A stretch of 25,680 nt of DNA from the IMG/VR virus record IMGVR_UViG_3300018411_000066, positions 1-25,680 of that record. One strand, written 5' to 3'. Positions 10,515 through 22,986 of the stretch are shown piece by piece. A program made the position numbers and the translations under genes. Positions within the stretch are counted from its first letter, which is position 1. Each line of letters begins with the position of its first letter. The notes under the pieces were generated by a model. The model was given only the letters and a program-made list of their open reading frames with translations. It ran no database searches and had not been told where the DNA came from. The stretch is from a virus.

Positions 10515-11336
10515 TTATAGCGTTATAATAGGTATAGCTACGCACCGGCATTGAATATCCTCACCTGGATGTCCTGTTTCTGGTGGATCGTCCCAGCGGA
10601 AAGTCTTACCGTTATTCTCTCTGTGAGTCTCTCTTACTCTGTCTCCGTCGCCTGATGTACGCCATACGTACTCTTCTATCCCTAGATTCTGCTGGCGCTG
10701 CTGATTAAGAGCTGAGTTCAATTTAGCTGTTTGATCTCTAGCTATTAACCTAGCTCTTTTCTCAGTGACGTTACCTATCTGCTGAAGTTCTTCTATCATA
10801 GAGGTAGCTTTAGTACCTTGGGTGACATTAGTCCAAATCATACTCTCTATCTTTTTAAAGTACTCTTCAGGTATAGATCTTATAAGAGCTACGTTGCTTC
10901 GAGTCATAGAGACAAGTACATCTTCTACATTGTCTTTCTGTATGACTGATTGTAAATTCACACCTACAGCTTCTTCCATAGCTGCATAAAATCTTTGTTT
11001 CTGCTGATTATCAACATCTTGAGTGAAAGACTCAGATATGACTCTTGCATTTTTATCTATGTTGATATAACCATTGCGCAGACGGTCAAAAGCTTCTGAT
11101 AACGTCTTTGCATAAGCGTCGTTAACATAATCTGCTTCTAACTGTTTTAGCAAAGGTACAACAATAGTATTGGTGTCTCGCTTTAAACGCTCTACTAAAG
11201 CATAGAGCGTATTACGATACTTTACTTCAGCAGACCTCGGAGCCTTAGCTGTCCTCACCTGTTTCTGCTTGCTCTTCTGGAGCTTCTTCTGCAATCTTAG
11301 GGTCATCAACTTCGGTAGGGGTTTCAGGTTGCTCAT
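10515..11336 (-). CDS. MuF-like minor head protein
   Basis: This frame is clearly the Mu gpF family minor head protein. The C-terminal half has LIARDQTAKLNSALNQQRQQ, IEEYVWRTSGDGDRVRETHR, NNGKTFRWDDPPETGHPGE and CRC followed by short hydrophobic strands. Those are the conserved W-R/K-T-x-x-D-x-R-x-x-H and GxxxxCRC motifs. The protein is thought to be carried in the capsid near the portal. The start is uncertain: the ATG at 11336 gives 273 residues but overlaps the portal gene by 92 nt, whereas a GTG at 11258 would leave only a 14-nt overlap. The overlap encodes a Lys-rich peptide. Confidence 0.82.
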   Translation of the reverse strand: MSNLKPLPKLMTLRLQKKLQKSKQKQVRTAKAPRSAEVKYRNTLYALVERLKRDTNTIVVPLLKQLEADYVNDAYAKTLSEAFDRLRNGYINIDKNARVISESFTQDVDNQQKQRFYAAMEEAVGVNLQSVIQKDNVEDVLVSMTRSNVALIRSIPEEYFKKIESMIWTNVTQGTKATSMIEELQQIGNVTEKRARLIARDQTAKLNSALNQQRQQNLGIEEYVWRTSGDGDRVRETHRENNGKTFRWDDPPETGHPGEDIQCRCVAIPIITL

Positions 11337-12657
11337 TGACGTAGCTCTCTAATTCTTTAACATACTCTTCAGTCACGTTAGTGTACGTGCTGTCCTGTTG
11401 TAACTCTTTAGCTATGATAACTTCATCGATAACGTTCATATCATAGTATAGTTTATCACGTTCAGCTCGGGTCTTCTCTAAAGTAGCCTGCTGTTCAGGA
11501 GTCATTTGGAATAGCGGCTTAAAGTCGTAAGACAAATCTAAATTTTCAGATAAACCTAGACTAGCAGCCATGATATCGTCAAAGTAATCTAACTTAGGTT
11601 TATATTCAGTTATCTGATCAGCTTTGATTTTGTCGTAATAGTTCTTAAGGTCGCCTTCACCAGTCGCATTGAATCCACTGGCGGCTTCACCAAGTAAACG
11701 AGTAGCCGGTACGTCCGCTGCAGACGCCAAAATATGACCATAGCGAGCAATAAGGTCAGGTAAACCAGCAAAGGTATTGGTCTTGGTCTGAAACTCCTCC
11801 TCGTTGTCCAGGAGCATCATGTTGTTAAAGCTTTTTAGCATACCGGCTAATGTAAAACGCTTGCGCAGTAAAGCTTCACCTTCTGCAGTCTGCAAGTATT
11901 GCATAAGACCTTTAACTTTAACAATATCTACGTTAGTCTCAAACACCATACTAGCTGTACCCTGAGTAACCGTATTGAAGTTAATCAGCGAGTCGTATAG
12001 GCGATCTAAAACCGAGTCTGAGAAGTAATTGTTACGTCTAAACTCGTCGTAAGGTAGTTGTACGCCGTCAAAGCGCAAAACTCTACTGTGATGTATACGC
12101 ACCGAGGTCTCTGCGAATCGGTAGAACTCAGGCATACCGAATTTAGAATTCATCGGATCGGCGATAGGAGTCTGATCTCCAGTACTAATGCGGTGACGGT
12201 CTATTACATTTATGTGACGTAAACCGCCTTTCTTGATACTAGCTATGTTTAGAGGTTTATCAGGTTCTAAACCGTCGTCTACAGCAAGCACAATAAATGC
12301 AGTACCGTAAAGTCTAGCCCATTTATGAGCGAGATTAAACTTATGCACTACACCTAGACGATCTTCTTCACTTCTTAACATCTCAGCAGTGGCGGTTTCA
12401 ACTTTGGTAAATAGTCTCCACTCCCTTGTCATATCATTAGGGATAATGTCAACGACTTTACCAGCTAACCAGTCTGTACGGTAAAGTGCATCTAGCTCTT
12501 GCCTGTTACCAGGATCTGACAGACGCTTGTTATTGACAAACTTGCTGTGATGTCTTTTATCCTGCTCTGTACCTAACTGAGCTATCAGGTTTTCCAAACC
12601 ATCTTTAGTCTCGGCATCTTCCAGGATTGTTGCCGCTTGATAATTTTCTTTTGACAT
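11245..12657 (-). CDS. Portal protein (DUF1073-like)
   Basis: A 470-residue portal. Diagnostic stretches in order are ALYRTDWLAGKVVDIIPNDM, LAHKWARLYGTAFIVLAVDDG, INVIDRHRISTGDQ, YGMPEFYRF-like and SRVLRFDGVQLPYD. Next is the helix ending TRLLGEAASGFNATGEGDLKNYYDKI. These correspond to the usual order in DUF1073-type portals, the ring through which DNA enters. The acidic tail (EEAPEEQAETGEDS) lies outside the conserved core. An AAGGTGAG ribosome site precedes the ATG; immediately upstream of that is one of the two 111-bp inverted-repeat elements, so this gene may start a new transcript or be controlled by it. Confidence 0.88.
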   Translation of the reverse strand: MSKENYQAATILEDAETKDGLENLIAQLGTEQDKRHHSKFVNNKRLSDPGNRQELDALYRTDWLAGKVVDIIPNDMTREWRLFTKVETATAEMLRSEEDRLGVVHKFNLAHKWARLYGTAFIVLAVDDGLEPDKPLNIASIKKGGLRHINVIDRHRISTGDQTPIADPMNSKFGMPEFYRFAETSVRIHHSRVLRFDGVQLPYDEFRRNNYFSDSVLDRLYDSLINFNTVTQGTASMVFETNVDIVKVKGLMQYLQTAEGEALLRKRFTLAGMLKSFNNMMLLDNEEEFQTKTNTFAGLPDLIARYGHILASAADVPATRLLGEAASGFNATGEGDLKNYYDKIKADQITEYKPKLDYFDDIMAASLGLSENLDLSYDFKPLFQMTPEQQATLEKTRAERDKLYYDMNVIDEVIIAKELQQDSTYTNVTEEYVKELESYVNEQPETPTEVDDPKIAEEAPEEQAETGEDS

Positions 12658-12677
12658 TTTTACTCACCTTTTGGATA

Positions 12678-12788
12678 GGGTTAGTTTAGGGGTGAAATCG
12701 TCCTGACCTAACACATATATAAAAATTTTTATTTCAGTTTTTATTTAGCCTGCATTAATAACTAATGATTTTACCCCTAAACTAACCC
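12678..12788 (-). repeat. 111-bp covarying inverted-repeat element, copy A
   Basis: Copy A has perfect 16-bp arms, GGGTTAGTTTAGGGGT (12678-12693) and its complement (12773-12788), around a 79-nt AT-rich loop. The loop matches copy B at 68 of 79 positions, and 63 of the first 67 are identical, including TCGTCCTGACCTAACACAT and AGTTTTTATTTA. The arms match copy B only at 12 of 16 positions, but each difference is mirrored. It ends about 20 bp before the portal ATG on the leftward strand. I do not recognise the element; RNA structure, DNA cruciform or protein-binding site are all possible. Confidence 0.85.
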
Positions 12789-12817
12789 TTTCTCGGTTTT
12801 AGAAGATTTAAATCAAA

Positions 12818-13564
12818 TCACATTGACCCTTTACTATATATCATGTCTTCAAACACCAATAGGTCTTCCACTGCGTCCATTGTTGGGTCTATCTGATCGT
12901 CGTGTTTATGAGTCATCATAGGAGTAAATTTTGAAAACTCCTCTTTGTAATCAAAAACAAAATCAGCTTCTCTAGGTATGTGAATGTATCCACTTGCAAA
13001 GTACTTGACCACACCCATAGCCCGTAAGACTTTATCCGTGTTACGCTGGATAGGTTCCACAGGGATCATATAGTCCTTTTTGATAGACTGTATCAAGCTA
13101 CTACCAGAAGATTTATCCTCTATCTTGACAATCTGCGCACCAAACGGTCTAAACTGGTTTGGCTTATGCTTTGACCAAAACTCAACCAGCTTAGACTCAA
13201 GCTCTGGAGCTTCCCATTTACCGCGAGCTTGGTCTATCAAGAATATACCCTTGGTACGTGATCTAGCCCAGCACTGGAATACGCTAAAGTCATTGCGCTC
13301 AGCAGTCTTTTGAGCTGTATCCCCATAGATCCTTATCAGGTCTATGTCAGGTGGTAGTATGTCGTAGTACTTCCAGTAACTGTCTTTGAACATACCACCA
13401 CCGGCCGGTTTAGGGTTTTGCTGATATTGGCTTGCAGCGGTATATGGATCGCCTTTAAACAGAGTTGAGAGCTGCTCTAAGTCCTGTTTAAACGGCCAAA
13501 GCGGACTCCCAGCAACCAATTTACGGGGTACATACGTTGCTATATTTTCGGAGTTAAAAAGCAT
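12818..13564 (-). CDS. terL: Large terminase, nuclease half (gene in pieces)
   Basis: This reading frame holds the second half of the DNA-packaging motor. I choose the ATG at 13564 (248 residues), with GAGGAG upstream, overlapping the HNH stop by 11 bases (ATGCTTTTTAA). The N-terminal part PLWPFKQDLEQL... SQYQQNPKPAGGGMF is the usual linker to the nuclease domain. The RNase H-like nuclease follows: IRIYGDTAQK (first Asp), VKIEDKSSGSSL, then KHDDQIDPTMDAVEDL (last Asp). It looks complete and intact. It lacks the ATPase domain, which is encoded separately by 14095-14958. Likely both polypeptides associate; not tested. Confidence 0.85.
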   Translation of the reverse strand: MLFNSENIATYVPRKLVAGSPLWPFKQDLEQLSTLFKGDPYTAASQYQQNPKPAGGGMFKDSYWKYYDILPPDIDLIRIYGDTAQKTAERNDFSVFQCWARSRTKGIFLIDQARGKWEAPELESKLVEFWSKHKPNQFRPFGAQIVKIEDKSSGSSLIQSIKKDYMIPVEPIQRNTDKVLRAMGVVKYFASGYIHIPREADFVFDYKEEFSKFTPMMTHKHDDQIDPTMDAVEDLLVFEDMIYSKGSM

Positions 13565-14105
13565 AGTAGAGCTCCTCTGAGGACTCAGAAATAAGCTTCT
13601 TACCATGATTGCAATAATATCCATGCTCTTTTTCTGCAGTTAACCTTACTTTTATAGCTTCTTCTTTACTTGTAAAAGATCCTAAGTGAGTTTTCTTACC
13701 TTCGATAGTTATATAGGCTATCCACTTATTTATACGTTCTTTCCACAACACTCCGGTTACACCAGACTTATTATTAGATTGTTTAGGTTTGTTGTGATGA
13801 TTAATTTTATTACTACATTCTCTTAAATTATACCAACTGTTATTAGACTTATTCTGATCCTTATGGTCTATTTGATCCTCAGGCCAAAAACCTAAAACGT
13901 AAAAATAAGCTAATCTATGAGCTGCATAAGATTGTCCAAAAAGCTTTACGGAGATATAACCTTTACCAGCCTTATGTCCGGCTTGATCTCCTATTTTAAA
14001 CTTACAGGAATGATGGTAAGGTTCTATCTTCCAAGTGAATAAGCCTGTTTGCTTGTTGTAGTCTAATGTTCTTCTAAGTATTTCCGGTGTCAATTTAAAA
14101 GACAT
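13554..14105 (-). CDS. HNH-AP2 homing endonuclease interrupting the terminase gene
   Basis: A 183-residue protein with a putative HNH nuclease domain followed by an AP2-like DNA-binding domain. Residues 5-30 carry the usual lead-in YNKQTGLFTWK. The core, 48-105, has AAHRLAYFYV, then PEDQIDHKDQNKSNNSWYNLRE, with H63, D80/H81 and N93 in HNH_3 positions. Residues 113-160 (SGVTGVLWKERINKWIAYI, HLGSFTSKEEAIKVR) look like AP2. It starts in the terminase N-half tail (ATGTCTTTTAA) and ends in the C-half start (ATGCTTTTTAA). GGAGG precedes its ATG. Freestanding endonucleases spread by cutting uninterrupted alleles. Confidence 0.9.
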   Translation of the reverse strand: MSFKLTPEILRRTLDYNKQTGLFTWKIEPYHHSCKFKIGDQAGHKAGKGYISVKLFGQSYAAHRLAYFYVLGFWPEDQIDHKDQNKSNNSWYNLRECSNKINHHNKPKQSNNKSGVTGVLWKERINKWIAYITIEGKKTHLGSFTSKEEAIKVRLTAEKEHGYYCNHGKKLISESSEELYYAF

Positions 14106-14958
14106 ATTCTTCTCCTCCGTGCAGCGCTGAGAGGATACCCTCTATACTTATAGGTTTTCCGTGACTGTACTCTTTAGGATAAGGTCTGTTTATGATCTCT
14201 TCAGTCAACAGAGTAGGTATTAAAAGGTGATGCCAATAGTCACCTGAACCGCCTTTGAGTAAGTATCCGCTGAGGTCTTCTTCGTGTATCCGCTGCATAA
14301 TGACTATCATAGGGACAGTCTCTACGGCAAGACGAGAACGCATAGTATTGTTAAAACGGTTGTTGATAGCTTGCCTTTTGACTGAGGAATAAGCATCGTC
14401 AGGTTTTACAGGATCGTCTATTACGAATGCACCAGTGAATCCAGGTTCCATTCTACCTGCTCTAAAACCGGTTATCTGACCTCCAGCTGGCGCGGCCATC
14501 ATACCACCTCCTAGCTCGGTAAACCATCTTTTCTTACCTTTGCTGTCTACCCTTATTTGCATCGGCCACAATTCTTGAAAGTATTGTGACTCTACAGTTT
14601 CCTTGATTTTAGAGGAGTTTTCCTGAGCTAGGTCACCAGAATAAGATGCGTGAATGAATTTGGCTCTGCTGTTTAAAGCCAAACCACGAGCTATAAAGTT
14701 CAGAACCGCTTGTTCTGTCTTGGTATATCCTGGAGCAATGTTTATCACAAGGCGGTCTATCTTACCATCTAAAACAGCCTGTAGTACGTACTCTATCACA
14801 AAGTGATGCCAGTTAAGCAGCATCTTGTTACCTTCACGTAGTTTGAAAAAGTACCTCATAAACTGGATACCATCAGACTGTAGCATATACTTGAGCATAC
14901 GCTTTTCGTTATAAGACCATAAGTCTATGCTGGATTCTTTGGAATCAAAATTCGTCAT
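14095..14958 (-). CDS. terL: Large terminase, ATPase half (gene in pieces)
   Basis: This 287-residue protein is the packaging ATPase. It contains the helical lid start LLNWHHFVIEYVLQAVLDGKI, a diverged Walker A at INIAPGYTKTEQ, a Walker B ending in GAFVIDDPVKP (D-D pair), and the coupling motif VPMIVIMQRIHEEDLSGYLL. It stops 11 bases into the HNH gene at LHGGEEYVF. The start has AGGAGAAG and overlaps the preceding TerS gene by 14 bases. Normal large terminases run on without a break into the nuclease domain. Here an ordinary stop leaves a stand-alone ATPase half. Confidence 0.87.
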   Translation of the reverse strand: MTNFDSKESSIDLWSYNEKRMLKYMLQSDGIQFMRYFFKLREGNKMLLNWHHFVIEYVLQAVLDGKIDRLVINIAPGYTKTEQAVLNFIARGLALNSRAKFIHASYSGDLAQENSSKIKETVESQYFQELWPMQIRVDSKGKKRWFTELGGGMMAAPAGGQITGFRAGRMEPGFTGAFVIDDPVKPDDAYSSVKRQAINNRFNNTMRSRLAVETVPMIVIMQRIHEEDLSGYLLKGGSGDYWHHLLIPTLLTEEIINRPYPKEYSHGKPISIEGILSALHGGEEYVF

Positions 14959-15349
14959 TGAACTTCTCCTTAAACAGCTCTATCTCTTCCGCTGTCAAAG
15001 GTTGCTGACTAGGGTCTGTAGCACCAGTGTTGTTACCACCAATGTCTATCTGCTTACGCTTAGGATGTAGGTATTCAGCTATAGTCTTAGCTGCATTAAT
15101 TGATTCTGACATACTAACGGTATGATATTTGAAACGAGTATTAACGTGGTCTACTATCTCAGCCCAATCTTCTTTTGACAGTTCACCGTTGGTAAAACTA
15201 TCTATCTCCATGATCAGTTCATATATACTAGATAGTCTTCTAGGGTCTTGCCCAGACATTATAGACTCTAAAAAGACAAGAGGATCCTTAACCTCACCTT
15301 TGTGGATGAGAGCTCTTAGATCCTCTATTGTGATAGGCTTGTAAGGCAT
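14945..15349 (-). CDS. Small terminase subunit (candidate)
   Basis: A 134-residue protein just upstream of and overlapping the large terminase, the normal position of the DNA-recognition subunit. It opens MPYKPITIEDLRALIHKGEV and is helical through the middle (SSIYELIMEIDSF, SESINAAKTIAEYLHPKRKQIDI). The C-terminal tail LTAEEIELFKEKFNDEF resembles the peptide other TerS proteins use to bind TerL. I assign it mainly from position and these helices, since the N-terminal DNA-binding part is not obviously a standard helix-turn-helix. Its codons include many AGA and ATA. Confidence 0.72.
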   Translation of the reverse strand: MPYKPITIEDLRALIHKGEVKDPLVFLESIMSGQDPRRLSSIYELIMEIDSFTNGELSKEDWAEIVDHVNTRFKYHTVSMSESINAAKTIAEYLHPKRKQIDIGGNNTGATDPSQQPLTAEEIELFKEKFNDEF

Positions 15350-15382
15350 ACGTTAATTGATATCTCCGGTATAATTACCATC

Positions 15383-15411
15383 AATATAAATCAATTTACG
15401 CGCTGTGTAAA
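15383..15411 (-). promoter_or_regulatory. Predicted promoter for the terminase genes
   Basis: On the leftward strand TTTACA (15406-15411) and TATATT (15383-15388) are spaced by 17 bp, with a predicted start near 15376, about 27 nt before the TerS ATG. The -35 lies at one end of an imperfect inverted repeat (TTTACGCGCTGTGTAAA), possibly an operator. Confidence 0.55.
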
Positions 15412-15413
15412 TT

Positions 15414-15755
15414 TTAAGTTGAACTGAGGTCAGCTAAATCCCTTTTTAACTGCTCCAGGAAGGCTACAGGGACGTCTTGCTGTGTCAATGCATAGTTAGC
15501 TCTGTCTATAGCAGATTGCATGCTGTCTAGTCGGCTTTGGAGCTCATCCTTAGGACACATCACACCGCAACACTGGAAGTAACCTCCCATCAGATTAACA
15601 GGATATTTAGTCACATCCTCCAGCAGCAACACTCCGTACCCTTTACGCTGAGCGTAGTCCATTGCCGATGCTGCATCATGTACGTTCATAGGAACATAAC
15701 CCGTAGGACACAGCGCTGTAGGTGGGATTTTAAAGTGGATTTTACTTGTACGCAT
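15414..15755 (-). CDS. Hypothetical protein of 113 residues
   Basis: Unrecognised. It starts MRTSKIHFKIPPTALCPTGY and has three cysteines in about 40 residues, CCGVMC after GGYFQ, spaced unlike a normal zinc finger. The C-terminal third is helical (ELQSRLDSMQSAIDRANYALTQ, VAFLEQLKRDLADL). It has an AGAGGT ribosome site, is the last of a run of small leftward genes and lies just ahead of the promoter for the terminase set. This kind of position, between replication and packaging genes, often contains accessory or host-takeover genes; no function can be read from the sequence. Confidence 0.55.
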   Translation of the reverse strand: MRTSKIHFKIPPTALCPTGYVPMNVHDAASAMDYAQRKGYGVLLLEDVTKYPVNLMGGYFQCCGVMCPKDELQSRLDSMQSAIDRANYALTQQDVPVAFLEQLKRDLADLSST

Positions 15756-15764
15756 TTTGACCTC

Positions 15765-15983
15765 TCAATCACTGTAATCTACGTTATCCATCTCACGGCA
15801 TTCATGCTCCATTTGACACTCAGAGCAGTAAATAGGCTGACTGTTACTTACGCTGAACAGCTTGTCTGCTTGATACTCACAGCTGTAGCAGATGTTATTC
15901 TGCAGAGCTTCTTGTAAGCGCTGAGCTCTTTTGGCTACGAACTCAGCACGGATTTCTTGCATACGAACTTGATATGGTAGCAT
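15765..15983 (-). CDS. Small Cys-rich protein, possible zinc-binding
   Basis: I choose the ATG at 15983 (72 residues), with AGGAGAG upstream; the longer frame begins with TTG. After a basic helix (MQEIRAEFVAKRAQRLQEAL) it has CYSCEYQADK, then YCSECQMEHEC, giving a CxxC...CxxC pattern typical of a treble-clef or zinc-ribbon knuckle. A small DNA- or protein-binding regulator is plausible. It sits one base from the stop of the preceding gene, so the two are co-translated. Confidence 0.6.
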   Translation of the reverse strand: MLPYQVRMQEIRAEFVAKRAQRLQEALQNNICYSCEYQADKLFSVSNSQPIYCSECQMEHECREMDNVDYSD

Positions 15984-15984
15984 C

Positions 15985-16140
15985 TCACTCTCCTTTAGGA
16001 TTAGTTTCAAACAGTTCCGCTACTGGGAACCATACGTTACGACCAGAGGTCTCAAAGCGACCAAACAGCTTCTTGCCTTCTTTGGTCTTGACACCGTAGG
16101 TAAAGAATTTGACACCGTGAGCTGAGTAGTAAGTGTTCAT
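15985..16140 (-). CDS. Small hypothetical protein
   Basis: Start at the ATG at 16140 (51 residues) with AGGAG six to seven bases upstream; the extended frame would need TTG. The sequence MNTYYSAHGVKFFTYGVKTK continues to GRFETSGRNVWFPVAELF. It is short, beta-rich and without cysteines. A promoter lies just upstream (16167-16195). No family recognised. Confidence 0.55.
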   Translation of the reverse strand: MNTYYSAHGVKFFTYGVKTKEGKKLFGRFETSGRNVWFPVAELFETNPKGE

Positions 16141-16166
16141 GCTGTTCTCCTGTTTAAGATGAGACA

Positions 16167-16195
16167 ATTATTCATCATATCAGAAAAGAAGTAAA
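16167..16195 (-). promoter_or_regulatory. Predicted promoter, member of a repeated pair
   Basis: Leftward -35 TTTACT (16190-16195), 17-bp spacer, -10 AATAAT (16167-16172); the ATG at 16140 lies about 20 nt after the predicted start. The same two hexamers at the same spacing occur at 16475-16503, and the sequence CTTTACTTC(C/T)T(C/T)TCTGA round the -35 is shared by both. Confidence 0.55.
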
Positions 16196-16218
16196 GGACT
16201 TTTGTGATAAAAAGTCCT
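16195..16218 (-). terminator. Hairpin separating two small genes, terminator-like
   Basis: AGGACTTTT (16195-16203) and AAAAGTCCT (16210-16218) form a perfect 9-bp stem with a 6-nt loop in the gap after the gene ending at 16231. On the rightward strand it is followed by CTTTTTG; on the leftward strand by UUACUUCUUUUC. It sits immediately before the promoter at 16167-16195, consistent with isolating the two transcripts. Confidence 0.5.
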
Positions 16219-16230
16219 CTTTTTGTGATT

Positions 16231-16446
16231 TTATTTTGCTAACTTTTTAGCAGCCTGGAAGTCAGCTTGACGTTCAGCTTGAGTAGTGTACTGGCTTTTG
16301 CTAACTACTACAAAGTATACTTCGTCATCTTCTGATTCGTCAACCATCACTTCACAGTTAGCTAGTGCAATCCATTTTTCAATTTTAGCCAGTTCTGAAG
16401 TTGTACCAGTTACGATGCTTGTGCCGTGTGAGTGTTGTACTTTCAT
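16231..16446 (-). CDS. Small hypothetical protein with acidic stretch
   Basis: The ATG at 16446 (71 residues) has an AGAGGAGAG site six bases upstream; a longer form from the ATG at 16476 has no such site. It begins MKVQHSHGTSIVTGTTSELAK, contains VDESEDDEVYFVVVSKS and ends with a Lys/Ala-rich helix. I recognise no family. It follows an inferred promoter (16475-16503) and precedes a hairpin, so it may be transcribed alone. Confidence 0.55.
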   Translation of the reverse strand: MKVQHSHGTSIVTGTTSELAKIEKWIALANCEVMVDESEDDEVYFVVVSKSQYTTQAERQADFQAAKKLAK

Positions 16447-16474
16447 TTTAACTCTCCTCTCTGATGATGAATTC

Positions 16475-16503
16475 ATTATTGTCCATCTCAGAGAGGAAGT
16501 AAA
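16475..16503 (-). promoter_or_regulatory. Predicted promoter and palindrome, repeated pair
   Basis: Leftward TTTACT (16498-16503), 17 bp, AATAAT (16475-16480), with a start near 16468 and the ATG at 16446. ATGAATTCAT (16467-16476) is a perfect 10-bp palindrome covering the start region, and one mismatch aside it extends to 16 bp. A helix-turn-helix gene lies immediately upstream, so an operator here is plausible. Confidence 0.52.
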
Positions 16504-16507
16504 GCAT

Positions 16508-16723
16508 TTATCGTAAAATTTCTGAGAAAAAGTTTATCAGCAGAATTTTACCAATAAGGTGTAACTCGTCACAGCGGAAGCTAACTATCCCTAACTCCCT
16601 TTGACTGTATGAGCTGCTACTGATACCTATGCTGTCAGCTATAGCTTCCTGGCTTATACCAGCTTTGGTTCTGTAGTGTCTTACCTTATTAGCTAGGTTG
16701 CCGTTGAAAGAAGGATCTAACAT
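16508..16723 (-). CDS. XRE/Cro-CI-type helix-turn-helix protein
   Basis: This 71-residue protein carries VRHYRTKAGISQEAIADSIGISSSSYSQRELG, the standard five-helix XRE DNA-binding core: recognition helix residues fall in SSSYSQRE. It starts within the last codons of the upstream gene and is too short to have more than the DNA-binding domain. It may regulate the adjacent promoter with its palindrome at 16467-16476. Whether it represses or activates cannot be told. Confidence 0.75.
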   Translation of the reverse strand: MLDPSFNGNLANKVRHYRTKAGISQEAIADSIGISSSSYSQRELGIVSFRCDELHLIGKILLINFFSEILR

Positions 16724-17169
16724 GGATCCTCCGTTTTGACGTTAGTGTCGTACTGGATAGGTTGGGGTTGAGGTTTGTTATTTTCAGGAGAGGTTAAACT
16801 GATGGATAATTTTCTTATCTCCTCTGCAACAGCCCAAAAATCATCCTGAGTATACATCGGATGTTGACCTTCCTGTATATACCACTGATTCTGAGCTTCC
16901 ATACCTTTAGCGTGGATAATAGCTGCTTGAATAAGACCGTAAGCTTTAAGAGTTTCACGGTCTACGCTTATGTTCATCATCAATTCTTCAGTTTTCATGG
17001 TTTCAACCTTAATATTATCGTCAACAAACATTTCCCACTCGTATTCTTCTAACCAACTAGAAGATCCTTTACAACCAATGGTTGCGCACTTTTGAATCTG
17101 CTCGCCTGCTCTGCGACTATACTTTAAAACGCTTTTACAAATAGGACATTTCTTGTAATCTATAGTCAT
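16717..17169 (-). CDS. Protein with N-terminal zinc ribbon
   Basis: Residues 7-33 hold CPICKSVLKYSRR and then QKCATIGCKG, a CxxC...CxxxxC arrangement suggesting a zinc ribbon. The rest of this 150-residue protein is helical and acidic (MFVDDNIKVETMKTEELMMN; DFWAVAEEIRKLS), with a Pro/Gln-rich tail. Small Lar-like restriction-alleviation proteins have a similar N-terminal metal site, but the remainder does not resemble them. Overlap with the next gene by seven bases suggests coupling. Confidence 0.55.
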   Translation of the reverse strand: MTIDYKKCPICKSVLKYSRRAGEQIQKCATIGCKGSSSWLEEYEWEMFVDDNIKVETMKTEELMMNISVDRETLKAYGLIQAAIIHAKGMEAQNQWYIQEGQHPMYTQDDFWAVAEEIRKLSISLTSPENNKPQPQPIQYDTNVKTEDPC

Positions 17170-17179
17170 CTTTAACCTC

Positions 17180-17437
17180 TTATAAAAATGCAGCGGATAT
17201 CTTACCGCTCATGTCTTTGATTATTTCCTGGTCAGTGAATTTACTACTATATGTAGGATTCATCTTAACCTCTTTGTTTGCATGGATTCTAGAGTACACA
17301 GTTACCCATTTACTGTCATCTTGCTCAGTTATGGTAAAGTGTATCCAGCTAGGTAACTGATAAGACTCCATGCGATAACCTCTTTCAGCTGGATACTCAA
17401 CTCTGGCTAAGAGGTGATCGTACCTTGTGATCCTCAT
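17180..17437 (-). CDS. Hypothetical protein of 85 residues
   Basis: Unrecognised; MRITRYDHLLARVEYPAERGYRME, then LPSWIHFTITEQDDSKWVTVYSR. It looks like a small alpha/beta protein with a basic/aromatic core and a Lys-rich C-terminus. The ribosome site AGAGGTTAG is good. It is packed tightly between neighbours (four to ten bases), so it belongs to the same operon. Confidence 0.5.
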   Translation of the reverse strand: MRITRYDHLLARVEYPAERGYRMESYQLPSWIHFTITEQDDSKWVTVYSRIHANKEVKMNPTYSSKFTDQEIIKDMSGKISAAFL

Positions 17438-17441
17438 TATA

Positions 17442-17768
17442 CTAACCTCTTATGTAATCTAGATTACCTGCTAAACCGGTAGGATTATTATAGATAGTAT
17501 CTACAATCACAAATCCTGGATTTATCAAGCTCAAAGACTCAACCAGTTTTACACCGAACATCGTACCCCGAGTCTTAAACTCCAACTCTACAGGTGACAG
17601 TCGGTCTTTATTGTTAAGATCGTCCTGGATTTGTTGCCAGCCGGACTTACTGAATCTTGCTTCTAGACAAAAGCTAGGGTCTAAAATACCTTCACGGATC
17701 ATCTTATTACGAGTAGTTACTATTACAGCTCGTACTGTATCTAAAGTGAGTGTTTGTGACTTAGTCAT
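17442..17768 (-). CDS. Hypothetical protein of 108 residues
   Basis: No family recognised. It starts MTKSQTLTLDTVRAVIVTTRNKM, a helix, then a mixed alpha/beta stretch (LEFKTRGTMFGVKLVESLSL) ending NPTGLAGNLDYIRG. GAGGATT is the ribosome site. Nothing catalytic is obvious, and it is one of six tightly spaced leftward genes between 16508 and 18119. Confidence 0.5.
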   Translation of the reverse strand: MTKSQTLTLDTVRAVIVTTRNKMIREGILDPSFCLEARFSKSGWQQIQDDLNNKDRLSPVELEFKTRGTMFGVKLVESLSLINPGFVIVDTIYNNPTGLAGNLDYIRG

Positions 17769-17771
17769 TTG

Positions 17772-18119
17772 TTAATCCTCTAAGTTTGAAAAGTCTGAGT
17801 AACCATTAGCTGCAGACCTTATATCTTGAACTAGAGACTCTACGTCCATAATACCGTAGTAGTTTCTAACTATACCTCTATCATTAACCTTTTTGCTTTT
17901 TGAGTCTTTAAGATCTAAGTTCCACTTGTATCTATACTTCTGACGACCTGGATGGTCAGCTACACGTATAGATCTTAAAGACTCATCCTCAAACTTAAGA
18001 TAAACAGATCCATGCTGACTAACGTGATAAATCCATATACCTAAATCCTCAAGCTCATCAAGCAAACAACCTATGACGAGTTGAGTTCTTTGGTTACGTA
18101 TGTCAGCTAATGTCGGCAT
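17772..18119 (-). CDS. Hypothetical phage protein of 115 residues
   Basis: The segment GSVYLKFEDESLRSIRVADHPGRQKYRYKWNLDLKD (residues 37-72) is striking: a short beta meander with a DHPG turn and a W-x-L strand. I have a memory of similar pieces in other phage genomes but cannot assign a function. The N-terminal helix (RTQLVIGCLLDELEDLGIWIYHVS) precedes it. A function in nucleotide or host control is possible, not shown. AGAGGAG is an excellent ribosome site. Confidence 0.52.
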   Translation of the reverse strand: MPTLADIRNQRTQLVIGCLLDELEDLGIWIYHVSQHGSVYLKFEDESLRSIRVADHPGRQKYRYKWNLDLKDSKSKKVNDRGIVRNYYGIMDVESLVQDIRSAANGYSDFSNLED

Positions 18120-18134
18120 ATCTGTTCTCCTCTT

Positions 18135-18683
18135 TTACTTGACCGTTGGTGTCAAGAGCCTTTTCCACATGTAGGTGATTGACTCTGCCTGAAAGTTTGC
18201 ATCATCCAAAGCATTATGTAAAGTCCCGCCTGACTTTCTGTTTAGACCACCTCGGCTTGACTCGTACATATCCTTGATTGTCCGCATATCCCTGACATTC
18301 CAAAACTTCCAAGGAACCTCTAAGCCGTGTTGACGGTAGGCGTTCTCTAGAATGCTGATGTCAAACGTAGCTCCATTACCCCATACCTTGCAATCGGACG
18401 GTAGCCAAAAGGCGAGGTCTATAAGCTGATCTCTAAGGTCCTCAGAACCGTTTAGAGCGGCTTTAGCTTTAGGCGACTGCCGTTGCCACCAAGCTGTTGT
18501 ATCCGGACACAGGAAGCGATCCTGGGCTTGCCAGTTTAATTCGGTGTAGAACTTATCCTGTGTGACAACATTATATCTAGGATCGAAAATCACAGCTCCG
18601 ATAGACACTATTGCACACTCGGGAGTCTTCCCCATTGTTTCCAAGTCGATACTTACGTGACGCGGAGTTTTTGATTGTTCCAT
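18135..18683 (-). CDS. DEDDh 3'-5' exonuclease (Rv2179c/RNase T-like)
   Basis: A 182-residue DEDDh-type exonuclease. Motif I is VSIDLETMGK; motif II is GNGATFDISILENAYRQHG (Asp); motif III is HNALDDANFQAE (His and Asp). The extra WWQRQSP segment at about residue 60-70 and ICPD/FLCPDTT resemble the Rv2179c-like 3'-5' exoribonuclease group. It could trim RNA or act on DNA near the replication proteins; the substrate cannot be told from sequence. The ATG has AGGA upstream and lies downstream of the second 111-bp element. Confidence 0.8.
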   Translation of the reverse strand: MEQSKTPRHVSIDLETMGKTPECAIVSIGAVIFDPRYNVVTQDKFYTELNWQAQDRFLCPDTTAWWQRQSPKAKAALNGSEDLRDQLIDLAFWLPSDCKVWGNGATFDISILENAYRQHGLEVPWKFWNVRDMRTIKDMYESSRGGLNRKSGGTLHNALDDANFQAESITYMWKRLLTPTVK

Positions 18684-18747
18684 AAATAATTCCTGTTTTG
18701 ATTAATCTTTTGAAATAAACCGTCACAGAAGCGGTGTTTTTACCATA

Positions 18748-18858
18748 GGGTTAGAAAAGGTGTAAAATCGTCCTGACCTAACACATATATAAAAATATTT
18801 ATTACAGTTTTTATTTAACCTGCATTAATATTTAATTAAAACACACCTTTTCTAACCC
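18748..18858 (-). repeat. 111-bp covarying inverted-repeat element, copy B
   Basis: Copy B has perfect 16-bp arms GGGTTAGAAAAGGTGT (18748-18763) and complement (18843-18858) with a 79-nt loop. The loop is conserved with copy A (68 of 79), above all in the first 67 positions, where only four differ. Relative to copy A, arm positions 8, 9, 10 and 14 change on one side and the mirrored positions change on the other, keeping pairing perfect. It lies in the 320-bp gap between the primase-helicase and exonuclease genes. Its 5' neighbour in the leftward transcript is a G-rich, C-poor tract. Confidence 0.85.
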
Positions 18859-18931
18859 TGACCACTTCTTACCCTAAAACATTTCCAACTATCCCTGTTT
18901 CCTACCTTCCATTTTCTAACCTTTCTAACCC
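18848..18931 (+). repeat. TTTCTAACC repeats, G-poor tract, possible origin
   Basis: TTTCTAACC occurs as a tandem pair at 18913-18921 and 18922-18930 and again in the right arm of copy B (18849-18857). The plus strand from 18859 to about 18960 has only about four G in 100 bases, so a leftward transcript would be purine-rich and C-poor. Repeats, strand skew and the adjacent primase gene suggest a replication origin, but no known origin motif is recognised. Confidence 0.35.
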
Positions 18932-18952
18932 TTCCCTGTATCCAAGTATCCA

Positions 18953-19003: not shown

Positions 19004-21685
19004 CTACAAATCATCAAAATCTTCCTCAAACTCAAAACCATCAGAGTCCAAATCCGGACTTTCCTCACTGTCTAATACACTATCAAAGTCTGCAGTCACA
19101 TCCGACTTTACACCGTCAAGCATTTTACCGCCGTAAACTTTCAGCGCGTTACCACCACCAATACGGACGCTATAACCAAGGCTTATCAAATCTTGCTTGA
19201 AGTGGGATTTGCGCTTGCGCATCTTCTCGTCGATGTCGTTGTCTTGGCACCACTCGTTATACACAATACCGTAGAAATCGCTAAAGTCAGCAACAATCTG
19301 GTTAGCGTTACCAGTAAACTCAACCTTCTCTTTAAGGAAGCGTACAACATTGTTAGCATGACCAAACCACTCATCCTTAGCCTGTTTACAAGACTCTGGC
19401 ATTTTGAACTTACCACGACTACGCAAGCGCTGCAGACCTTCTAACATAAAGTTAAGTACGCCAGCCATCTCTTTGGGATTTTGAGTGATATTAAGGACTC
19501 GGTCTACATCTTCCTGATTATGTTTGGTAAACTGACGGCTGAACGGTATTACATTAGCCCGACGGAACATACCATGACTAAGGTCGCGAGTCGCTGGCCA
19601 ACCGTTGCTACACATAATCAAATTGCCGGCGTACATAAAGTGGAAAGCTTCACGACCTTTAGGGTTCGCTTCCATTTTAGTATTCTCAGAGAACATCTTA
19701 ACACCAGCATCCTTTAACAAGTAACCAGCCGGTAATTCCTCAACCACAACCGCCAGTTTAGCGACCAAGGAGTTTAAGGCATGGTTATTACTGGTATCTG
19801 TACCGGCGCTTAACAGCTTAACCGTGGTCATTAGCTGACTGTCTTGGAGGATTGCTTCCATAATCTTTAGGATAGTAGACTTACCATCACCACCAGGACC
19901 TCGGAATAACCACCAGCTTGCAATGTTCTTATACGGTTGAGACGTATAACCCATCAACTCACCCATGTGACGTATCATATCTTCACCGTCGTCAAACTCA
20001 GCAAAGATTTCACTCAATGTCTGCATAAACAAAGGACACTCAGCTGCTGGGTCGTAATCAACGTTAAGACAGTTAATCAGGTAGCTACGATACGTATGCG
20101 GCTTTAATACGTGAGAGCCATCTTTGTTAATCCACAACTCGCCGTTCTTACAGTTAATAACGCTTGACGGCATATCCTTTTTAAATATACGGTCAGCTAA
20201 GGTACTCACCTGAATACGCGCCAGCTTAACGGCCTGTTGGATTAAAGTTAGCTCGGGGAGTTCTAAGCTCATCTTTTCCTTTATGCCGTGTAGCGTTGCC
20301 TGTACCAGCTTAGCCAGGAATTCGTCTGATATTGGCTTCCAGTGAGTCTTATGGTAAGCCCACAGAACACCAGATGGAGGGCAGGTTAAATGCTTGCCTT
20401 TATTAAAGGTGACTTCTAAAGTCTTACGGCTAAGTAATAAGGCTAAGTCGTCTGAGAGTTTAGTATCTAACTCTTTTAGCATCTTGTTGATGTTGGACTG
20501 CTTCATTACTTTGTTAGCTACGAGTATCTCCTGAGCGCGCATAGACTCAAACGTGTCAGCAGCTTTAATAAGACGTAAACAGCGCATAATGTCTTCAGAG
20601 TCGCTGTTTGGTCTTAACTCGTTTGCAGCTTCTATTGCTCGACCTTCTACACCTTCTTCCATTTCTGGGTCGTTGAAGATATCACCAATGTCAATCTCAG
20701 CGGCTAGACGTTTACTGTCCTTGAGCATAGATGCTTCGTCGCTGTTGTCTTCGTCATCTTCGTCGTTTAAATACTGGTTGCCAAAGCTGAGTATAGCCTT
20801 TACATCCTTAGTATCTTCACCGAACTGCTCCAGCTGGCGAATCAAAGTACCTATAGTAGTTGAGTTGTCTTTATCCCATAAAGATTCCCATCGTGTACGT
20901 ATAGTGTTCTCTTCTTCAGAATACATATCGTCTTGTAACGACCAAGCTACGAACTCTTCAATCCCCTGACCATCAGTAGCATGATGCGCACCGCACAACA
21001 AAGGAAACCATTCGTCGTTGCTACCAAAGTCTTCAGGGTTAAGCTTGGAGAGTATCAGGTCTTGCAGTTGTTGACCAGTTAGACAACCTTTACCACTGGA
21101 GTACTCGTCCTTTTTGGTTTTTTCTGGACGTTGTATTAAAGCCAGGATGCTCTCAGGTAAGTCTTGTTTATCACTGTTGCTGTTAACCCACTTATAGTAA
21201 TTACCGCTAGGGTGTTTACTACCAGCACACAACACCTGACGACCAAGACGTTTAAACTCAACTCCAGGAAGATCTTCCAAAGTCTCACGCAGCAGACCGC
21301 AATAAACTTCTTCGGGTAAGGTGCAATAAATATGCCATCCACCACCACCGGTCTTAACGCAAGGTAATTCTTCGGTTAGTTCTTCAAAGTCAAAATAACC
21401 AAACAGTTCGGCAACTGCAGACTCAACGTCTTCACCCTTGTAATTGCGAGGATCCATGTCAATTACGACTTCGTTATGTGGTATACGATAGCCGAGGTTG
21501 TAACCCTTCTCGATCCACTTTTCAACGTCTGAGACTTTATAATCTTTGGTTGTCCAGTCTTTGTCGACTGGCGTCTTACCGCGCTCTTTACCCTTAACCA
21601 TCTTGTTCCAAACATTAATAGGAATAATGTCAGCACCGGTCTTAGCAAAAGCTAGGTAAGGTCTTAGCTCTTTTTTGTTATACAT
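19004..21685 (-). CDS. PrimPol-SF3 helicase fusion, replicative protein
   Basis: This 893-residue protein joins a bifunctional primase-polymerase to a helicase. The N-terminal PrimPol has NEVVIDMDPRN (catalytic D76/D78), GGGGWHIYC (H118) and the third-motif region VEFKRLGRQVLCAGSKHPSG. A central acidic linker (EDDEDNSDEAS, residues about 300-330) follows. The SF3 ATPase has Walker A GPGGDGKST near residue 594, Walker B VVVEE and sensor I LIMCSNGW, followed by a C-terminal winged-helix-like region and an acidic tail (DSEESPDLDSDGFEFEEDF). It should unwind and prime phage DNA. Only the extreme C-terminus looks unstructured. Confidence 0.9.
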   Translation of the reverse strand: MYNKKELRPYLAFAKTGADIIPINVWNKMVKGKERGKTPVDKDWTTKDYKVSDVEKWIEKGYNLGYRIPHNEVVIDMDPRNYKGEDVESAVAELFGYFDFEELTEELPCVKTGGGGWHIYCTLPEEVYCGLLRETLEDLPGVEFKRLGRQVLCAGSKHPSGNYYKWVNSNSDKQDLPESILALIQRPEKTKKDEYSSGKGCLTGQQLQDLILSKLNPEDFGSNDEWFPLLCGAHHATDGQGIEEFVAWSLQDDMYSEEENTIRTRWESLWDKDNSTTIGTLIRQLEQFGEDTKDVKAILSFGNQYLNDEDDEDNSDEASMLKDSKRLAAEIDIGDIFNDPEMEEGVEGRAIEAANELRPNSDSEDIMRCLRLIKAADTFESMRAQEILVANKVMKQSNINKMLKELDTKLSDDLALLLSRKTLEVTFNKGKHLTCPPSGVLWAYHKTHWKPISDEFLAKLVQATLHGIKEKMSLELPELTLIQQAVKLARIQVSTLADRIFKKDMPSSVINCKNGELWINKDGSHVLKPHTYRSYLINCLNVDYDPAAECPLFMQTLSEIFAEFDDGEDMIRHMGELMGYTSQPYKNIASWWLFRGPGGDGKSTILKIMEAILQDSQLMTTVKLLSAGTDTSNNHALNSLVAKLAVVVEELPAGYLLKDAGVKMFSENTKMEANPKGREAFHFMYAGNLIMCSNGWPATRDLSHGMFRRANVIPFSRQFTKHNQEDVDRVLNITQNPKEMAGVLNFMLEGLQRLRSRGKFKMPESCKQAKDEWFGHANNVVRFLKEKVEFTGNANQIVADFSDFYGIVYNEWCQDNDIDEKMRKRKSHFKQDLISLGYSVRIGGGNALKVYGGKMLDGVKSDVTADFDSVLDSEESPDLDSDGFEFEEDFDDL

Positions 21686-22830: not shown

Positions 22831-22907
22831 GTCCCCTTAGCTCAGTTGGTTAGAGCGTCCGACTCATAATCGGTAGGTCACTGGTTCAAATCCAGTAGGG
22901 GACACCA
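22831..22907 (+). tRNA. tRNA with CAT anticodon, probably tRNA-Ile2 (AUA)
   Basis: The 77-nt gene folds with acceptor GTCCCCT/AGGGGAC, D arm AGCTCAGTTGGTTAGAGC, anticodon loop CTCATAA (22863-22869), and T arm CTGGTTCAAATCCAG; CCA is encoded. Anticodon CAT at 22865-22867 could be elongator Met or lysidine-modified Ile2. The CCCCTTAGCTCAG start and the CTGGTTCAA T arm resemble bacterial Ile2 better than elongator Met. One anticodon-stem pair (T58-T74 on 22800 numbering) is mismatched. Confidence 0.87.
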
Positions 22908-22909
22908 TA

Positions 22910-22986
<77 letters not shown>

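Follow-up and report, generated by a model that had tools for sequence, protein, structure and literature searches.

Paired stem-loops in a tailed-phage genome as probable replication origins of the pRN1 kind

The closest described counterpart of the elements treated here is the origin of pRN1, an archaeal Sulfolobus plasmid, in which a stem-loop of 100 base pairs (bp) lies 54 bp behind orf904, the gene of a PrimPol-helicase-winged-helix protein (PMC4234260, PMC3869888). This stem-loop is required, stays functional when it is moved and has an essential loop, and the relatives of pRN1 conserve the fold of their stem-loop origin, not its sequence (PMC4234260, PMC3869888). The same authors proposed a stem-loop origin for Bordetella phage BIP-1 (PMC4234260). 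How phages with PrimPol-helicase proteins choose their origins is poorly known. In the literature found, one archaeal plasmid has a demonstrated stem-loop origin, one Bordetella phage has no more than a proposed one, and there was no earlier description of such elements in phages beyond PMC4234260, PMC3869888, PMC8718748 and PMC7102993. Here we analyze two stem-loop elements in the IMG/VR virus record IMGVR_UViG_3300018411_000066, whose whole analyzed stretch of 25,680 bases is called the window. From the combined analyses, both elements are probably stem-loop replication origins of the pRN1 kind, or initiator-assembly sites, used by the phage's own PrimPol/D5 helicase. An initial annotation of the window knew of no named family with this form, which was mistaken in kind, since the pRN1-type stem-loop origins had already been described (PMC4234260, PMC3869888).

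12677-12789, no strand assigned: stem-loop copy 1 (portal side), arms 12677-12693 and 12773-12789, proposed second origin or initiator-binding site
18747-18859, no strand assigned: stem-loop copy 2 (primase side), arms 18747-18763 and 18843-18859 (17 bp, perfect), proposed replication origin

The elements had first been placed at 12678-12788 and 18748-18858, with lengths of 111 nucleotides (nt) and arms of 16 bp, and all of these values were reproduced exactly when they were recomputed. The same holds for the loop identity of 68/79 positions (63 of the first 67) and for the mirrored arm differences at positions 8, 9, 10 and 14, with perfect pairing in both copies. Once the flanking A/T is counted, the perfect arms are 17 bp long in both copies (AGGGTTAGTTTAGGGGT and AGGGTTAGAAAAGGTGT), and the arm of copy 1 extends to 23 bp with one mismatch. 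The loop of copy 2 is 79 nt long and AT-rich. The two 111-nt copies are identical at 92/111 positions, and the similarity between them ends at the ends of the palindrome (115 nt). As RNA and as DNA alike, the two copies are much more stably folded than dinucleotide-shuffled sequence (z -4.3 to -8.4). The window holds five occurrences of AGGGTTAG: the four arms of the two copies and one more next to copy 2, at 18925, in the extra direct repeats on its primase side. The two copies are the best long-loop stems of the window, except for one intragenic pair at 17901-17985. This pair is another perfect 17-bp inverted repeat (TGAGTCTTTAAGATCTA, loop 51) within the open reading frame (ORF) 17772-18119, and it holds no iteron motif.

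19004-21685, minus strand: replication protein, presumed initiator, with Pfam Prim-Pol, PriCT_2, D5_N and DUF5906 helicase domains and a C-terminal winged helix (model)
18916-18932, minus strand: additional direct iterons (GGTTAG/GGGTTAG), located after the primase stop codon and before copy 2

As in the pRN1-type origin, copy 2 lies shortly 3' of a replication gene; it starts 145 nt after the stop codon of the primase, a protein of 893 residues. Copy 1 is not beside a replication gene, and the pRN1 origin likewise works when it is moved (PMC4234260). The size is also comparable, with arms of 17 bp (23 bp with one mismatch in copy 1) and loops of 67-79 nt against 21 bp and 58 nt in pRN1 and 20 bp and 57 nt in pRN2. 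Both published origins were recovered by our stem finder as positive controls in the 400 nt 3' of the replication gene, the first at +54 in pRN1 (21-bp perfect arms, loop 58) and the second at 61-157 in pRN2 (20 bp, loop 57). The domains of a pRN1-type initiator are present in the window protein, the PrimPol and the superfamily 3 (SF3)/D5 helicase as Pfam domains and the winged helix only as a prediction from a structure model. This model of the C-terminal domain has a predicted local distance difference test (pLDDT) value of 82 and the helix and strand order of a winged helix, and its best fold match was the RFX DNA-binding domain (probability 0.99, with an E-value of only 0.054). ORF904 of pRN1 was among the weak profile hits of the window primase.

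The exact loop patterns had no match in 2.9 million viral contigs, and distant BLAST searches of the element in phage and plasmid records gave matches at chance level only. Since the loop had no sequence match in the viral contigs, the relatives were gathered through the primase. In the first relatives examined (L010, L011, L012 and L006), GGGTTA-type repeats, an AT-rich core and an inverted arm stand directly behind the primase gene, in elements otherwise dissimilar in sequence to those of the window; extra repeats of the 18916-18932 kind are also found in L010, L011 and L012. The arms are perfect over 24 bp in L006 (loop 133) and over 18 bp in L019 (loop 74). Achromobacter phage AchV4 (Casjensviridae; primase ~27% identical) carries GGGTTGGATTGTTGG arms at the equivalent place, with perfect outer arms of 15 bp. 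Loop sequences cannot be aligned across most of the relatives.

A survey covered 55 primase loci drawn from both viral contigs and bacterial genomes. The stem finder took the best ungapped stem with a loop of 30-160 nt within 400 nt after the primase stop, and all other 400-nt stretches from those 55 loci served as the control. A stem score of at least 12 was reached by 37/55 (67%) of the primase-3' regions compared with 16/1115 (1.4%) of the controls (Mann-Whitney p 2.5e-25), and a second comparison, with the 300 nt 3' of other ORFs, gave 33/54 against 21/628 (p 8e-28); both p-values are nominal and too small, because the loci are related to one another. The primase-side stems have a median loop of 81 nt and a median start of +62 nt from the stop.

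It was found that a typical arm consists of two tandem iterons of ~9-10 nt, inverted on the opposite side, for example GGGTTAGAA-GGGTTAG, GTGACGAAA-GTGACGAAA, GGTTAAAT-GGTTAC or CAAAACCTAA-CAAACCTAAC, among others. The iterons of the family arms contain GGTTA or GTG, and these motifs are oriented. GTG points outward 21 times and inward 0 times in the primase-side stems, compared with 13 to 13 in the control stems; for GGTTA/GTGA/GTGG the counts are 26 outward and 2 inward, compared with 8 to 9. The PrimPol of phage NrS-1 recognises 5'-TTTGGTTA-3' and 5'-GTG(A/G)-3' and starts its primer just 5' of the recognition site on the template; each strand of the NrS-1 genome carries a single TTTGGTTA, and this pair has been suggested as the origin (PMC8718748, PMC7102993). 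The family arm motifs share their outward orientation with the NrS-1 PrimPol sites, so that primers would run from the core on both strands, provided that the window enzyme uses GGTTA/GTG motifs, as we infer. A sequence search with the N-terminal 300 residues of the window primase found no homology to NrS-1 PrimPol, and NrS-1 itself was not located by sequence search. An integron attC site was among the candidates and was dropped, its motif orientation being wrong.

Some other arrangements were seen near the primase genes. Three alternating iteron arrays behind the primase form two neighbouring perfect stems at L064:5571-5819 and L044:6582-6839. A stem with a 53-58 nt loop lies ~3.8-3.9 kb before the primase stop at G003:41441-41532, G006:12827-12924, L050:2693-2792 and L053:2699-2791; its arms in G003 and G006 hold no GGTTA/GTG iterons, and no tRNA was found in this stretch of G003.

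The arms of related elements change in step, a left arm being closer to the right arm of the same element than to the arms of other elements. In 13 related elements of the GGTTAG group, where the own right arm was compared with the arms of other elements, the match at spacer positions 8-11 is 77% within an element against 44% across elements (permutation p 0.0006), and that of the second iteron is 92% against 64%. Arms that diverge yet remain complementary, as among the relatives of pRN1, are found family-wide, with the portal-side copy of G009 as the exception. The initial annotation had held that pairing is kept rather than sequence. The covariation proved real beyond the original pair, but pairing is not kept at all costs, as only 15/41 stems in the family are perfect and the G009 copy departs from the rule; this copy is also a partial instance of the pattern that the annotation had named as contrary to its claim, a conserved loop with lost arm pairing. 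Pairing is favoured, not absolute. Sequence alone does not separate three influences on the arms: their iteron content, correction of the palindrome by template switching, and selection for pairing.

The same arms bear on a regulatory RNA, in which the hairpin of the leftward transcript would end, split or regulate the exonuclease and portal messages. RNA folding is strong (z ~ -6 for the coding strand) and both copies are intergenic in one leftward operon, as such an RNA would have it. On the other hand, the arm mismatches of the family stems comprise 18 G.T and 16 A.C on the coding strand, that is, no G-U bias, and the plus strand of copy 1 folds equally well or better. A promoter and terminator scan gave no U-run or terminator formed by the elements, and they belong to no Rfam family, only two transfer RNAs (tRNAs) in the window reaching the Rfam cut-offs. 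A regulatory RNA would also leave the motif orientation and the linkage to the PrimPol gene unexplained, and we consider it improbable. Among the options of the initial annotation, the regulatory RNA is therefore disfavoured by the lack of G-U bias and of a terminator after the elements, and a replication mark is the best supported, by the pRN1-type anatomy, the position and the family-wide association.

From a genome scan, a second stem-loop stands just upstream of the portal gene in G002 (L010), G008 (L012), G004 and G009. Identity is 80-84% among the portal-side copies of G002, G004 and G009 and 79% between the primase-side copies of G002 and G004, compared with only ~60-68% for the two copies inside one relative genome (shuffled sequence 53%). 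The two-site layout exists beyond the window phage, in a subgroup, where each site evolves as a set of orthologues. The two window copies are 83% identical to each other and ~60% to their orthologues. As they are closer to each other than to the orthologues, it seems that precisely this stem-loop unit was copied or underwent gene conversion, and the simplest reading of the sequences would be that one site was copied onto, or converted by, the other, with tract ends at the palindrome ends. The portal gene of one relative, at G007:C1:26698-28018, is split into two matched fragments, and one of these carries a TAG stop codon in frame.

Two insertions of a small mobile element, resembling a miniature inverted-repeat transposable element, would equally yield terminal repeats, a similarity that ends at the palindrome ends and copies as alike as these (83%). 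Nevertheless, we give this explanation hardly any weight. There are no target duplications at either copy, the window holds no third copy, the loop has no match in the 2.9 million viral contigs, and the phage records match at chance level only. The relatives, moreover, hold stem-loops of unrelated sequence at the same two places, and these evolve as orthologues. Known families of terminal inverted repeats were dropped, target duplications being absent.

11245-12657, minus strand: portal protein (Phage_portal_3, Pfam), gene after copy 1
18135-18683, minus strand: Rv2179c-like 3'-5' exonuclease (Pfam), gene after copy 2

The genes around both copies are all on the minus strand. Copy 1 had been placed between terminase and portal and copy 2 between primase and exonuclease, and both placements were confirmed; copy 1 lies between the C-terminal terminase ORF and the portal gene, whose start codon is ~20 nt beyond its right arm. 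Both copies thus stand within the 5' leader of the next gene, and iteron arms imply protein binding. It is conceivable, if unlikely, that the arms are an operator bound by the primase winged helix or another phage protein, which would control the downstream gene without any origin; in a variant, arm binding would link replication to the late genes. In L006 a stand-alone small protein after the stem-loop has a C-terminus like the primase winged helix (E 9e-06, two-sequence search), as could be expected of a regulator. However, the element follows the primase gene whichever gene comes next, the Rv2179c-like exonuclease gene in L011 and L012 and a different ORF in L010, and the proven pRN1 equivalent is an origin (PMC4234260). 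An operator, in addition, needs neither long matched arms nor an AT-rich core of fairly constant size. The small protein of L006 (L006:12899-13186, 95 residues) directly follows the stem-loop, with the C-terminus RRGGGNILKVYG compared with RRGGGNVVKIYG at the end of the primase, and is possibly a free origin-binding domain or a regulator.

The large terminase of the window is split across frames (12818-14958), with an N-terminal ORF at 14095-14958 and a C-terminal ORF at 12818-13624. Exactly where they join, the window carries an inserted ORF for an HNH_3/AP2 homing-type endonuclease (13554-14105), with junction-like sequence at either end. L010 and L012 likewise have the two terminase ORFs in different frames, overlapping at TATGnnTTTTA (an overlapping start/stop or a +1 shift). 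The minimum of the guanine-cytosine (GC) skew lies near 22-23 kb and is uninformative on the origin, because it falls where the gene direction changes. Tandem tRNA-Met (CAT) and tRNA-Arg (TCT) genes are located near this switch, at 22831-22986.

Several observations count against the elements being origins of the pRN1 kind. The portal-side site was present in only 4/18 related records besides the window, and one of them has largely lost its arm pairing: in G009 the portal-side arms pair at 12/22 positions, though the element is 84% identical to its orthologue and the loop is kept. About one third of the 55 primase relatives have no such stem by the stem finder, and the scan of BPP-1 yielded a stem of just 9 bp, which did not surpass shuffled sequence. 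The pRN2 arms contain neither GTG nor GGTTA and the pRN1 arms contain no GGTTA. The survey loci, gathered by similarity, are not independent; the effect size is large. The stem finder also gave no strong long-loop stem in the Mesyanzhinovviridae phages Donnerlittchen and PaMx28, in Vibrio phage 1.055.O or in Parabacteroides phage PF672P2; CTAGGCC/CTTAGA-type repeats after the primase were seen by eye in Donnerlittchen and PaMx28.

If the elements act as such origins, their arms would provide short binding or priming repeats of the GGTTAG and GGTG type, in inverted orientation on the two sides of a core that is AT-rich and melts easily. The replication protein may bind the arms through its winged helix, and its helicase may open the core, possibly through extrusion of a hairpin or cruciform. 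Primer synthesis by the PrimPol would begin immediately 5' of the GGTTA/GTG sites in the opened DNA, and since these priming sites are inverted, DNA synthesis would proceed outward in both directions. Copy 2 would occupy the ancestral place, 3' of the primase gene, with copy 1 before the portal as a second site of the same kind, and their likeness would come from a recent event, copying or gene conversion, confined to the stem-loop unit. The fuller proposal, that these phages have two PrimPol-dependent stem-loop origins, at the primase and the portal gene, whose arms are the PrimPol's own outward-firing priming sites, and that in the window phage exchange of the unit keeps the two alike, is put forward only tentatively, with the odds against it. 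If it were true, origins could act as modules that are copied into new positions.

With the survey, sequence by itself is enough to predict where such an origin would lie, and the arms are linked to motifs recognised by a phage PrimPol that has been characterised, that of NrS-1. The survey suggests that viruses and prophages of bacteria may commonly have, as origins, inverted stem-loops with primer sites behind the PrimPol gene. The window phage itself offers a natural duplicate of such a probable origin with arms changed in step, that is, a ready-made test of pairing against sequence.

Satellite phage P4 has two cis sites, ori1 and crr, one of them next to the gene. Its alpha protein resembles the window protein in having a D5-type helicase and a C-terminal winged helix that acts at repeats, and differs in its Toprim-type primase and in iterons without a long stem-loop (PMC4234260). 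In BIP-1/BPP-1, a phage PrimPol-PriCT_2-D5 protein is likewise followed by a stem-loop proposed as origin (PMC4234260); the differences are that one site was proposed and that the stem finder saw no convincing long stem in BPP-1, which is near-identical to BIP-1. NrS-1 shares the recognition motifs TTTGGTTA and GTG(A/G) and has an inverted TTTGGTTA pair in mid-genome as its proposed origin, whereas the portions of PMC8718748 and PMC7102993 consulted describe no long stem-loop. The likeness to pRN1 and pRN2 lies in a unit of ~100 nt with perfect 20-bp arms and a large loop, directly 3' of a gene for PrimPol, SF3 helicase and winged helix, and in arms that are complementary yet not conserved in sequence between relatives. 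The window elements differ from these in measuring 113 nt, with 17-bp arms built of iterons and a 79-nt loop, and in belonging to a tailed phage of bacteria with two copies per genome, one of them far from the primase gene. What is new relative to the known pRN1-type origins is therefore the iteron arms, the setting in bacterial tailed phages and the recurring second site before the portal.

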